Positions 6,648-11,879 of a DNA stretch of 64,000 nt are shown here, in pieces. The notes below the pieces were generated by a model, which saw nothing but the letters and a program-made list of their open reading frames with translations, did no database searches and had not been told where the DNA came from. The DNA comes from Anaerolineae bacterium (lineage in GTDB: Bacteria > Chloroflexota > Anaerolineae > J036 > Brachytrichaceae). A program made the translations under genes and the position numbers. The stretch's first letter is position 1. Every line of letters begins with the position of its first letter. Where the stretch lies: positions 1-64,000 of the forward strand of contig CANJQH010000005.1 in NCBI GenBank assembly GCA_947476335.1, in the 5' to 3' direction.

Positions 6648-7454
6648 ATGTCTGATCCGGTACTTGACGCATTGCCTATGCCGCAGCGATTTCGCCTTGA
6701 TCAACGCAATGCACTCATCACTGGCGCAGGGCAGGGCATCGGCCGTGCGTTTGCTCATGCCCTGGCCGAAAGTGGCGCACGCGTCGCCGTCATCGATCTG
6801 AATCTCGCCGCCGCCGAAGCGGTTGCCACCGAACTCACCGCAAAAGGAGCCGATGCATTCGCCATGCGCGCTGATGTCACCAGTGAGGCCGATATCGAAC
6901 GTATGGTCGCTGCAGTTGCTGCGCGCTGGGGCGGATTGCACATCGCCTTCAACAACGCCGGCATTGGCCTCTGGCGCGATTCAGAAGCAATGACGGCCGC
7001 AGAATGGGATCGCATCCTCGACGTCAATCTAAAAGCCGTCTTCCTCTGCTGTCGCGCCGAGGCGCGCATCATGTTGCCAGCCGGCTACGGCAAAATCATC
7101 AATACCGCATCCATGAGCGGCAGCATCGTCAATATGCCGCAAAATCAGGCCGCCTACAACACGTCGAAGGCCGGCGTCATTCACCTGACAAAAAGCCTCG
7201 CCGCAGAGTGGGCGCCGCGTGGCGTACGCGTCAATTGCATCAGCCCAGGCTATACACGCACGCAGCTCGTTGCCGATCTGATTCGCTCGCCCGAAGTGCA
7301 GGCCTTCGCCGAAACATGGCTTGCTCGCACGCCAATGGGTCGTATGGCCGAAGTCACTGACCTGCAAGGCGCCGCCGTTTTTCTTTCGTCCGCCGCTAGT
7401 GATTTCATGACCGGGCACGATCTCGTTATCGATGGCGGATACGCACTCTGGTAG
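6648..7454 (+). CDS. Short-chain dehydrogenase/reductase (SDR)
   Basis: Classical SDR of 268 residues with the cofactor motif TGAGQGIG at 25-32, NNAG at 102-105 and the catalytic set Ser157, Tyr170 and Lys174 (YNTSK). An acidic residue after strand beta-2 (VAVIDL) suggests NAD over NADP. The substrate is unknown; the following zinc dehydrogenase suggests a sugar or polyol oxidation pair. The ATG at 6648 is chosen because TATACT lies exactly 7 bases upstream (6635-6640), pointing to a leaderless transcript, and because an earlier in-frame start would overlap the rpmB terminator. Confidence 0.88.
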
Positions 7455-7482
7455 CTCAAACAAGCTGAAAAATAAGCTGAAT

Positions 7483-8481
7483 ATGAAAGCCATCGTTTTT
7501 GAAGGCGCCCATCGCTTGTCTACGCAGAATGTTGCAGATCCCGTCTGCGGTGCAAACGACGTTGTCGTGCGTGTGACGCAAGCCGGCATCTGCGGCACAG
7601 ATCTGCATATTTTTCGTGGCGAATACTTGTCGGCATTTCCGCTGATCCCAGGACATGAATTCGTCGGCCGCGTCGCCGAAGTCGGTTCGCAAGTGCACAC
7701 TTTCAAGGTCGGCGACCGCGTGGTCGGTGATCCAAATTTGGCATGTGGTGAATGTGAATTTTGTCGCTCGCTACAGCCAAATCATTGCCGCAACTGGCAG
7801 GGGATTGGTATCACGCAGCCAGGCGCATTCGCTGAATATGTGGCCATGCCGGCACGCGCGGTATATCGCGTGCCAGATGAAATCAGCGACACTGCAGCCG
7901 CATTTATCGAACCGCTGTCGTGCGTGGTGTATGCGCTCGGCCACATCCGCGTGCGCGCAGGCGATGACGTGCTGCTCTATGGAGCTGGGCCGATGGGACT
8001 GCTGCTGACGCAGGCGCTGCACCACAGTGGTGCTGCGCGCGTCGTCGTGGTCGAACCGAATGCGCAGCGTGCGGCGCTGGCGAAGCAGGTCGGTGCCGAT
8101 ATTGTGCTTACGCCGCAGGAAGCTGCTGCGCTGGCGCAGGATCCCGGCGAATTTCACGTCGTCGTGGAAGCAACCGGCGTGCCCGCGGTGATCCAGCGCG
8201 CACTGGATCATCTGCGGCCTGGGGGGCAGTATTTGCAGTTCGGCGTGGCGCCCATCGGCACAACCGTTGCCTGGGATCCGTACCGCATTTTCAAAAACGA
8301 CTGGAGCGTGCACGGTTCGTTTGCGCTGTCGTTCACGTTTCAGCCGGCCATTCGCTGGCTCAAATCACGCGCACTGGATGTTGAACTCCTCGTTAGCCAC
8401 GTGCTTCCGCTGAGCGACTTTGAATCTGGTTTCGCCGCATTTATGCGCGGCGACAGCCTGAAAGTGCATCTGCGGCCTTAG
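7483..8481 (+). CDS. Zinc-dependent alcohol/sorbitol-type dehydrogenase (MDR family)
   Basis: 332-residue medium-chain dehydrogenase. The catalytic zinc ligands are the Cys in GICGTDLH and the His-Glu of GHEFVG. The structural zinc lobe is CGECEFCRSLQPNHC, and NAD binds at GAGPMGLLLTQAL. It belongs to the threonine/sorbitol/xylitol dehydrogenase branch; the substrate is not deducible. It follows the SDR gene by 28 bases on the same strand. ATG 7483 begins the conserved MKAIVFEG strand. Its TAG overlaps the convergent rlmN stop by four bases (TTAG). Confidence 0.9.
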   Translation: MKAIVFEGAHRLSTQNVADPVCGANDVVVRVTQAGICGTDLHIFRGEYLSAFPLIPGHEFVGRVAEVGSQVHTFKVGDRVVGDPNLACGECEFCRSLQPNHCRNWQGIGITQPGAFAEYVAMPARAVYRVPDEISDTAAAFIEPLSCVVYALGHIRVRAGDDVLLYGAGPMGLLLTQALHHSGAARVVVVEPNAQRAALAKQVGADIVLTPQEAAALAQDPGEFHVVVEATGVPAVIQRALDHLRPGGQYLQFGVAPIGTTVAWDPYRIFKNDWSVHGSFALSFTFQPAIRWLKSRALDVELLVSHVLPLSDFESGFAAFMRGDSLKVHLRP

Positions 8482-9608
8482 CCTACTTCGGCTTTCAACT
8501 GACCGCAGCCCGCAGCAATGTCGATGCCACGACGCACACGCAATGTGTTTGGCACACCGGCACGGTCGAGCACTTCACGAAAGCGATGCCGCGCTTCGAG
8601 ATCGGGTGCATGGCCGCGATATCCCTGCGTCGGGTTCAACGGGATCATGTTGACGTGCACAAGGTTGGCTGAACGTGGATTTGTCTCTTGCACGAGATCA
8701 ACCAGTGCTTCAGCCTGCTCTTCCGTATCGTTTACGCCATCGATCAGCGCCCATTCGTAGCTGACACGACGATTCGTCTTGCGCACATAATCGCGCGTCG
8801 CGTGCACAACGGACTTCAACGGATAGCGAATGTTGATCGGAACCAGCTTGTCGCGCAGTGTGTCGGTGGCAGCGTGCAGCGACACGGCAAGATTGACTTG
8901 CAGGTCCTCGGCGGTAAAGCGTTCAATGCCAGGCACAATGCCGACGGTGGAAACCGTTATGCGGCGCGCGCCCATGCCGAATCCACCTTCAGCTTCCGGA
9001 TGCATCACACGGTTCACCGCTTCCATTACGTGCGTGTAATTTGCGAATGGTTCACCCATGCCCATCAGCACCAGATTCGACAGACGCTCGGCCTCGGCGC
9101 GCTTGCCGTTGGACTTCTCAGCCTGCGCCAGCGTACGCGCTACACGCACAACCTGTTCGACGATTTCGCCAACGCGCAGATTGCGCATAAATCCACCCTG
9201 ACCGGTGGCGCAGAAGCTGCAGTTCATCGCGCATCCAGCCTGCGAGGAAATGCATGCTGTGCGGCGATGGCCGTCATATTCCATCAACACTGTTTCAACT
9301 TCAGCGCCATCGGGCAAATGGAAGAGCCACTTCTGCGTCCAGCCGTCTGTTGAGCGCTGATGTGCACCAATCGACATGCGCGAAAGCACCACACTATCGC
9401 GCAGCCGTGAGCGCAGCGACTTCGGCAGATCGCTCATTTCATCAATTTCCGACGCCATGCGCTGATACAGCCATGTCCAGATCTGACGCGCGCGAAAAGC
9501 AGGCTCACCCCACGTGTTCAACTGATTGCGCAGCTGTTCGAAGGTCAGGTCGTAAAGAGAGGGCAGGGGAGCGGATGCATCCGCGGATTGGACATTCACG
9601 GGGCACAT
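8478..9608 (-). CDS. rlmN: 23S rRNA A2503-C2 / tRNA A37-C2 methyltransferase
   Basis: RlmN is a radical-SAM enzyme that methylates C2 of A2503 in 23S rRNA and A37 of some tRNAs. The radical-SAM cluster is Cys126, Cys130 and Cys133 (CxxxCxxC), followed by GEPFANY. An N-terminal helical domain precedes the barrel, and the C-terminal TLRVRRGIDIAAGCGQL segment carries the methyl-bearing Cys. At 376 residues it is slightly longer than the usual 350-370. It lies downstream of the Xer recombinase gene and converges with the dehydrogenase. Confidence 0.96.
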   Translation of the reverse strand: MCPVNVQSADASAPLPSLYDLTFEQLRNQLNTWGEPAFRARQIWTWLYQRMASEIDEMSDLPKSLRSRLRDSVVLSRMSIGAHQRSTDGWTQKWLFHLPDGAEVETVLMEYDGHRRTACISSQAGCAMNCSFCATGQGGFMRNLRVGEIVEQVVRVARTLAQAEKSNGKRAEAERLSNLVLMGMGEPFANYTHVMEAVNRVMHPEAEGGFGMGARRITVSTVGIVPGIERFTAEDLQVNLAVSLHAATDTLRDKLVPINIRYPLKSVVHATRDYVRKTNRRVSYEWALIDGVNDTEEQAEALVDLVQETNPRSANLVHVNMIPLNPTQGYRGHAPDLEARHRFREVLDRAGVPNTLRVRRGIDIAAGCGQLKAEVG

Positions 9609-9643: not shown

Positions 9644-10666
9644 CTATTTTGATTTGCGCGCTGCTTCATGCGGAGAAAGTCCGTATGTGTGCAGCTGATC
9701 CTTCAGCACGTCGGTCTTCGTGTGTGCATATACGATGCGTGTTGTGGATGGAGAGGCGTGGCCGAGATAGGCCTGCACCGATTCGAGCGGCATGCCTTCG
9801 TTCAACAATTGTGTGGCGCGAAAATGGCGAAAGCTGTGCGGCGACGTATTCGCATTCAGGCCGAGCTTGCGCGCTGTGCTCTTGACCGTGTGCCAGATCG
9901 AGACGCGGCTGAGCTGCTGGCCAGCGCCGCGGCCATGCGAGATGAACAGCGATGGGTTGGAATCTTGTCGCTCGCGGCAATAGGTGCGAATTGCCGCCTG
10001 CGCTTCGGGCGTTAGAAAAAGCATTCGCTCTTTGCCACCTTTGCCGGTGATCAGCACTTCGTTTGCGGCGCCGTCGGCGACCTGGCCGCGCGTCAGGCTG
10101 GCGACTTCACTGACGCGCCCGGCGGAGGCGTAGAGCGTGTGCAGGATCGCGCGCGCGCGCAGATGCTCAAGTCGACGGCGGACGGATTGGCGTGATTTTT
10201 TTTCATCATCAATCTCCGGAATCTGCGGCGGCGGACCGTCGAAGAATTCGATCAGCTGCGGAATGCGTTCATCGGCGATGCGGTGCCGATATCCGCCGCG
10301 CGTTGTTCCACGCGCCGTTTTCAACCGAGCTTCTGCCTTCGCGCGATTCAAATTCTGTGGCAGCCGATCATTTGCGTCGAGCCATTCAAGCAGGCGGCGC
10401 AAGCCTGCCATGTAAAGCTGCTGCGTGGCTTTGGCGTACTTGCGACGCGCCATCTGCGCGCTGAAATTTTTCAATATGTCGGCGTCGATTGTGAGAGCAA
10501 GCGTCACGGCAAGCGTGAGTGCGGCGCGATAGGCGTTGCGCGTATTTTCATTGGCGGAGCGCATCGCATCGAGAAAGCCATCAACCGTCGACCGATCGAC
10601 TTTTGGTTGATCTACTGTGCTCAAAGATGGTGGGGGAGCGGCGACAGACGCCTTCTTCGGGCTCAT
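9644..10666 (-). CDS. Tyrosine site-specific recombinase, XerC/D-like
   Basis: 340-residue tyrosine recombinase with an N-terminal SAM-like DNA-binding domain (about 25-115) and a catalytic domain holding all active residues: Arg184 (AGRVSEV), Lys212 (GKGGKER), His277-x-x-Arg280 (HSFR), His303 (LGHAS) and nucleophile Tyr313. The size and the single polypeptide fit Xer chromosome-dimer resolvases, though phage and element integrases share the fold. The N-terminus has a 30-residue Ser/Pro/Val-rich tail. A 28-bp dif-like site lies 20 bases upstream, as in streptococcal XerS/difSL. No phage or conjugation genes are adjacent. Confidence 0.9.
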   Translation of the reverse strand: MSPKKASVAAPPPSLSTVDQPKVDRSTVDGFLDAMRSANENTRNAYRAALTLAVTLALTIDADILKNFSAQMARRKYAKATQQLYMAGLRRLLEWLDANDRLPQNLNRAKAEARLKTARGTTRGGYRHRIADERIPQLIEFFDGPPPQIPEIDDEKKSRQSVRRRLEHLRARAILHTLYASAGRVSEVASLTRGQVADGAANEVLITGKGGKERMLFLTPEAQAAIRTYCRERQDSNPSLFISHGRGAGQQLSRVSIWHTVKSTARKLGLNANTSPHSFRHFRATQLLNEGMPLESVQAYLGHASPSTTRIVYAHTKTDVLKDQLHTYGLSPHEAARKSK

Positions 10667-10686
10667 GCCAAAATTCTACATCTGTT

Positions 10687-10714
10687 ATTTAACTTAATAA
10701 TCATTGTGTTAAAT
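10687..10714. other. Putative dif-like recombination site (11-6-11)
   Basis: Left arm ATTTAACTTAA (10687-10697), spacer TAATCA, right arm TTGTGTTAAAT (10704-10714). The arms are inverted copies matching at 9 of 11 positions. The right arm differs from the E. coli XerD-side dif half-site TTATGTTAAAT at one position. The total length of 28 and the 6-bp centre equal those of canonical dif. It could also act as an operator for the recombinase gene. Confidence 0.6.
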
Positions 10715-11768: not shown

Positions 11769-11879
11769 GTAACTACTCAGGCCCAAATCAGTATTTCCCG
11801 CGAAACACGCTATTCCTTCCCCCTTCGGGGGAAGGAATAGCGTGTTTCGCGTTGGAAAATGGCTGGCCTGAGTAGTTAC
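11769..11879. mobile_element. Family A palindromic MITE, copy A1
   Basis: The element runs from GTAACTACTCAGGCC to its perfect inverted copy. It has an inner perfect 25-bp stem (11799-11823 with 11827-11851). The flanks are an exact 8-bp duplication, GGCAAGCG, at 11761-11768 and 11880-11887. It has no coding content. Confidence 0.92.

Follow-up and report, generated by a model that had tools for sequence, protein, structure and literature searches.

A gene-linked dif-like site and its putative recombinase near the probable replication terminus of an Anaerolineae bacterium

Does the 28-bp element lying directly in front of an Xer-like recombinase gene in an Anaerolineae bacterium represent the dif site of its chromosome, and does the adjacent recombinase act on it alone? 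These questions are raised by the window considered here (the whole stretch of DNA analysed, 64,000 nt), which comprises positions 1-64,000 of contig CANJQH010000005.1 (GCA_947476335.1). The host draft genome comprises 125 contigs with a total of 3.42 Mb and is 92.7% complete. The locus consists of the following features:

10687 to 10714, minus strand (that of the adjacent gene): dif-like site of the 11-6-11 layout, read directly from the sequence, present as a single genomic copy, conserved beside orthologous genes and located at a KOPS convergence point
10687 to 10697, no strand: gene-proximal arm ATTTAACTTAA, the reverse complement of which is one mismatch from the E. coli XerD half-site
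10698 to 10703, no strand: 6-bp region TAATCA, read directly, presumably central by analogy with the dif layout
10704 to 10714, no strand: gene-distal arm TTGTGTTAAAT, one mismatch from the E. coli XerD half-site
10673 to 10678, minus strand: possible -10 element TAGAAT between the site and the start codon; a similar TANNAT-type hexamer occurs 5' of the start in most family orthologues
9644 to 10666, minus strand: Xer-like tyrosine recombinase of 340 aa (PF00589, 105.8 bits)

The site reads ATTTAACTTAA-TAATCA-TTGTGTTAAAT; its arms are symmetric as inverted repeats at 9 of the 11 positions, and a spacer of 20 bp (10667-10686) separates it from the recombinase ATG (10666). Layout, arm symmetry and spacing are exactly those given in an earlier note on this DNA, and the single mismatch that it reported between the right arm and the E. 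coli XerD half-site, which we take to be TTATGTTAAAT, is found in the left arm as well. Arm symmetry alone is weak evidence because 16 of the 63,973 28-mers of the whole window reach at least 9/11. The likeness to the XerD half-site is much rarer: in the 64 kb, no 11-mer other than the two arms lies within one mismatch of it. Elsewhere in the window (11769-11879), nested inverted repeats (GTAACTACTCAGGCC ... GGCCTGAGTAGTTAC) surround a long perfect hairpin at about 11800-11855, which by eye resembles a small MITE-like element.

The 28-mer occurs once in the host genome at up to three mismatches, as the earlier note had expected. A relaxed arm pattern with at most two mismatches also gave a single copy, and the reversed control pattern gave two. 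Searching for a canonical dif (by its consensus, up to three mismatches) revealed no match in the host and scattered matches in five of the 28 family genomes, all of them at three mismatches and at a rate close to that of the reversed control. A separate canonical dif was rejected on these grounds. The standard XerC/XerD pair accompanied by a better dif elsewhere, which the earlier note had considered damaging to its proposal, did not appear: no canonical dif was matched, and the 92.7% complete draft lacks a standard xer pair, having one XerD-like gene besides the site-adjacent recombinase, itself below the model cut-off.

The position of the site was compared with GC skew in five relatives. 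In the stretches sampled, the skew change-point lies 12.7 kb from the orthologous site in G021, 15.9 kb in G016, 38.8 kb in G004, 10.9 kb in G043 and 13.1 kb in G002, so that in all five the skew turns from positive to negative 11-39 kb away. In G021, which consists of a single contig, positive values prevail in the sampled skew between about 3.27 Mb and, past the record start, about 1.25 Mb, and negative values between about 1.28 and 3.03 Mb; the coordinate of the site is 1.2637 Mb. The host contig has only 10.7 kb of sequence to the left of the site; to the right, out to 84 kb, nearly every 5-kb step shows the expected negative skew. The skew switch that the earlier note had proposed as a check is seen near the orthologous site in the five relatives. 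The dnaA gene of G021 (G021:C1:4020175, 4.02 Mb) is remote from the skew origin, and that of G002 (G002:C62:86922) has the site only 8 kb away; dnaA is no guide to the origin in this group.

The second line of evidence is provided by octamers of the E. coli KOPS consensus, which we take to be GGGNAGGG. The window contains two groups of them:

6729 to 9568, plus strand: KOPS-like octamers GGGNAGGG, two in number (6729, 9561), on the left side and directed toward the site
13652 to 53687, minus strand: eight KOPS-like octamers (13652, 20618, 21257, 34405, 38543, 40680, 43420, 53680), right of the site and directed toward it

Beyond the window, the same contig carries two more octamers directed toward the site and a single one pointing away, so the site is faced by both octamers on its left and by 10 of the 11 on its right. 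Over six genomes, 174 octamers point toward the site and 54 away from it (toward/away: G021 69/30, G016 48/11, G004 19/6, G043 19/2, G002 7/4, host contig 12/1), and in G021 plus G016 the polarity of this octamer is the strongest of 56 letter-matched arrangements. The best convergence interval holds the site in four of the five relatives (G016, G004, G043 and, as one of two equal intervals, G021); in G002, where the split is drawn from 11 motifs, it misses the site by about 10 kb. An unguided search of G021 for polar k-mers had mostly picked up repeats, probably of a CRISPR-like array, and its result did not carry over to G016; the KOPS consensus was tested thereafter, against letter-matched controls. 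The host genome encodes an FtsK with the gamma domain. The suggestion that the site marks the terminus thus gains from both the skew switch in five relatives and the KOPS-like motifs converging on the site.

As a separate observation, the CRISPR-like array of G021 (L094, G021:C1, about 1264800-1268300), the repeats of which were seen in translated frames, apparently adjoins the dif-like site. We considered an element inserted at the G021 site and rejected it; the adjacent 6 kb looks like a CRISPR-like repeat array, and no second site was found at its far end.

To what extent gene and site form a unit can be judged from the 28 family genomes. The recombinase is found at E<=1e-50 in 18 of them, and the family site pattern (up to three mismatches) in 14, all among these 18. 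In each of the 14, a copy shares its contig with the recombinase gene, at a distance of no more than about 1.5 kb; the site adjoins the gene in 12 and lies about 1.4 kb off in G002 and G015. Thirteen of the 14 have one copy and G015 has two. Its second copy (L039, G015:C157:4958-4983) is on another contig beside a sugar-kinase-like gene and may represent contamination or a real second site. Among the four genomes with the gene and without the pattern, G007, G013 and G018 carry a diverged dif-like site upstream, and in G009 the gene is cut by a contig end. At up to three mismatches no site pattern was found in the 10 family genomes without the recombinase, and the reversed control pattern gave one match across all 28. 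These 10 genomes include G011, a 99%-complete draft from a genus in which the other sampled members have both gene and site; therefore, the system is dispensable within the group. A search in G011 via the homologue of a gene flanking the site in G021 led to a 7.75-kb contig with different neighbours, and the locus may either have been lost from G011 or be missing from its assembly.

Outside the family, the recombinase has homologues at E<=1e-50 in 80 of the 396 sampled genomes of the class, nearly always as a single gene. We scanned 30 upstream regions of such non-family homologues, and seven contained sites symmetric at 10 or 11 of 11 positions, compared with 2.4% of random windows, a pool which itself includes true sites. 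An AT-rich control (19%) was set aside because it drew on few stretches, with true sites among them. The other distant upstream regions yielded a few weaker dif-like candidates by eye, and more than half of the 30 had no clear site. In G059, there is neither an upstream site nor a skew switch near the gene. Linkage of gene and site is frequent and not universal.

Owing to the position, copy number and conservation of the site, the dif reading is well supported: it is very probable that the 28-bp element is the chromosomal dif of the host and that the adjacent gene encodes its recombinase. The protein retains the R-K-H-R-H-Y catalytic set of tyrosine recombinases: in an alignment of 17 homologous sequences R184, H277, R280, H303 and Y313 are invariant and K209 is nearly so. 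It falls below the cut-off of every NCBIfam Xer model that it matches, namely XerA (140.2 bits, its best Xer score, cut-off 220), XerD (138.9 bits, cut-off 329.6), XerC (135.5 bits, cut-off 335.15) and XerS (62.5 bits, cut-off 267). The nearest solved structures are archaeal XerA and E. coli XerD; the profile match to the XerH structure (E = 3.1e-14) is weaker than those to XerA and XerD. The AlphaFold2 model has a mean pLDDT of 83. Records of Candidatus Roseilinea and Thermoflexales are among the close homologues.

The earlier note had called this recombinase a lone one, which is correct only in part, since a search for a second xer gene revealed three PF00589 genes in the host genome: the site-adjacent recombinase, an XerD-like gene on contig C96 (275 bits, under the XerD cut-off of 329.6) and a weak match on contig C25. 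The C25 gene (L004, G000:C25 36442-36843) is a diverged tyrosine-recombinase-like one, in which the usual HxxR and catalytic tyrosine motifs seem to be missing, and weak PF00589 matches resembling it recur in relatives. The main alternative within the dif reading is therefore a heteromeric one, in which the adjacent recombinase would occupy one arm and the XerD-like C96 protein the other, in the XerC/XerD style. This alternative is favoured by the XerD-like gene of the host and by a further Xer-like match to the window protein in 13 of the 15 genomes that carry a strong orthologue (counting the host, and G009 despite its cut gene). The two genomes without such a match are G014, which has PF00589 matches of 83 and 27 bits besides the recombinase, and G004, where one weak 40-bit match is the sole PF00589 hit beyond the site-adjacent recombinase. 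No XerD-like PF00589 partner was thus found in G004 (a draft 94% complete), which argues against heteromeric action; this genome has both the skew switch and KOPS convergence, and the site-adjacent recombinase is the sole strong PF00589 gene found in it. The XerD-like gene is moreover retained in family genomes without the recombinase and the site, e.g. G011 and G006, which also speaks against its being a partner at this site.

The arms themselves bear on the same alternative. Their outer bases differ between genera (TTTAAC in the host, TGTTAC in g3 and g6, ATTAAC in g8), and the changes on one side are mostly matched by those on the other. For six genera, 49 of the 66 arm positions are symmetric, compared with 41.6 expected after random reassignment of right arms between genera (p = 0.0055; the g8 site was recognised partly by symmetry). 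Perfectly palindromic sites occur in distant lineages (G028, L168, L164, G096 and G242). A permutation over 12 lineages gave 105 of 132 symmetric positions compared with 82 expected; it is biased because some of the distant sites were chosen for symmetry, and therefore we relied on the six-genus family test. Co-change of the outer bases and the palindromes of some lineages run counter to two different proteins and would fit one protein reading both arms. The inner bases, on the contrary, differ between the two arms in a constant way in most family sites, which favours the heteromeric arrangement; such asymmetry could also set the order of cleavage. Taken on both sides, we regard heteromeric action as rather unlikely. 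Because of arm co-variation, the lack of a canonical dif match in the host and that of an XerD-like match in G004, the recombinase likely works alone at its site, as far as can be judged from sequence comparison. The earlier note's proposal of single-recombinase dimer resolution is upheld in its dif part, and its homomeric part remains a likely one in a host that has a second, XerD-like gene.

One can also suggest a mobile element, with the gene as its integrase and the 28-mer as its attachment site, as location of a recombinase beside its own site is typical of such elements, the gene neighbourhood varies between genera, and the distribution is patchy. However, phage and plasmid records gave only matches of less than 60% identity, and the element is a single copy at the point of skew and KOPS convergence in five relatives (four genera), and a search at up to three mismatches gave no second site there. 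This makes the mobile-element origin very improbable. Two viral contigs from IMG/VR (L182 4528-4549 and L183 235-256) match the family site pattern beside the same small phage gene; by our own estimate this is probably due to chance, and a dif mimic is possible.

Equally improbable is the idea that the element serves as an operator or as part of a promoter in self-regulation of the recombinase and not as a recombination site: in most family orthologues it lies, as here, 20 bp from the start codon and beside a possible -10 element, but in G002 and G015 it is about 1.4 kb away from the gene, and an operator need not be positioned at a KOPS convergence. A consensus promoter scan detected no promoter. 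The aligned upstream regions suggest that binding of the recombinase at the site may also repress its own gene; autoregulation on top of recombination is possible.

Returning to the reading of the element as a chromosomal dif, we suppose the following sequence of events. Each 11-bp arm would be bound by one recombinase monomer, and two sites occupied in this way would synapse within a dimeric chromosome. FtsK, following the converging GGGNAGGG octamers, would gather the two sites at the septum and might activate the recombinase through its gamma domain. Finally, Tyr313 would exchange strands across the TAATCA centre, and the dimer would be converted into two monomers.

The unit can be compared with several known systems. 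The XerC/XerD/dif system of E. coli and most bacteria uses a 28-bp site of the 11-6-11 layout, and the Anaerolineae unit shares with it the length and layout of the site, arms at no more than one mismatch from the XerD half-site, KOPS-like motifs and the FtsK gamma domain; it differs by the linkage of site and gene, the near-symmetric arms and a recombinase far under the XerC and XerD cut-offs. As summarised in PMC5357621, XerS/difSL of streptococci and lactococci consists of one recombinase gene adjoining its site near the terminus and works with FtsK, and difSL is 31 bp long with a larger central region. The Anaerolineae unit is similar in the adjacency of gene and site, here 20 bp apart, and in its location near the terminus, and presumably also in working with FtsK, whereas its site is 28 bp long with a 6-bp centre and its protein scores 62.5 bits against the XerS cut-off of 267. 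The same source describes XerH/difH of Helicobacter and Campylobacter as one FtsK-dependent recombinase with the site near its gene (PMC5357621); here the protein is remotely alike, and the arms and the centre of the site differ. In layout, the Anaerolineae unit is thus like XerS/difSL and, less tightly, XerH/difH; it does not belong to the former and probably not to the latter.

Archaeal XerA gives the best NCBIfam score (140 bits) and the best solved relatives, but our recombinase is under the 220-bit cut-off and its bacterial host has an FtsK with the gamma domain; XerA, according to PMC5357621, is independent of FtsK. XerL/dif of Legionellales, according to the account in PMC9765430, is a lineage-specific single-recombinase dif/Xer system found by genome comparison. 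The parallel, drawn from its description only, is that a lineage-specific system was again found by comparing genomes, though in a different phylum. Within Chloroflexi, Kono et al. report dif predictions for three Dehalococcoides genomes with XerCD orthologues (PMC3025954). These sites share the phylum and the 28-bp length with ours; they belong to another class and are not gene-linked. Our literature search for dif sites in Chloroflexota and XerD in Anaerolineae found no description of a gene-linked dif system.

The presented data would extend the gene-linked, apparently single-recombinase type of dif to a large, mostly uncultured branch of Chloroflexota. The site can serve as a terminus marker for draft genomes in a group where dnaA, at least in G021, is off the skew origin, and the combination of a short site with naturally diverse cognate recombinases is useful for studying how specificity and both arms change jointly. 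The question is also raised of how chromosome dimers are resolved in the relatives which lack the unit and have the XerD-like gene. Tentatively, and with more doubt than confidence, we suggest that Anaerolineae possess a self-contained xer-dif cassette, composed of a distinct recombinase clade and a diverging near-palindromic dif, both arms of which co-evolve with the recombinase; the cassette may be gained, lost and re-installed at the terminus in varied neighbourhoods, often beside a separate XerD-like recombinase. If this is true, chromosome dimer resolution would represent an exchangeable module in this class.
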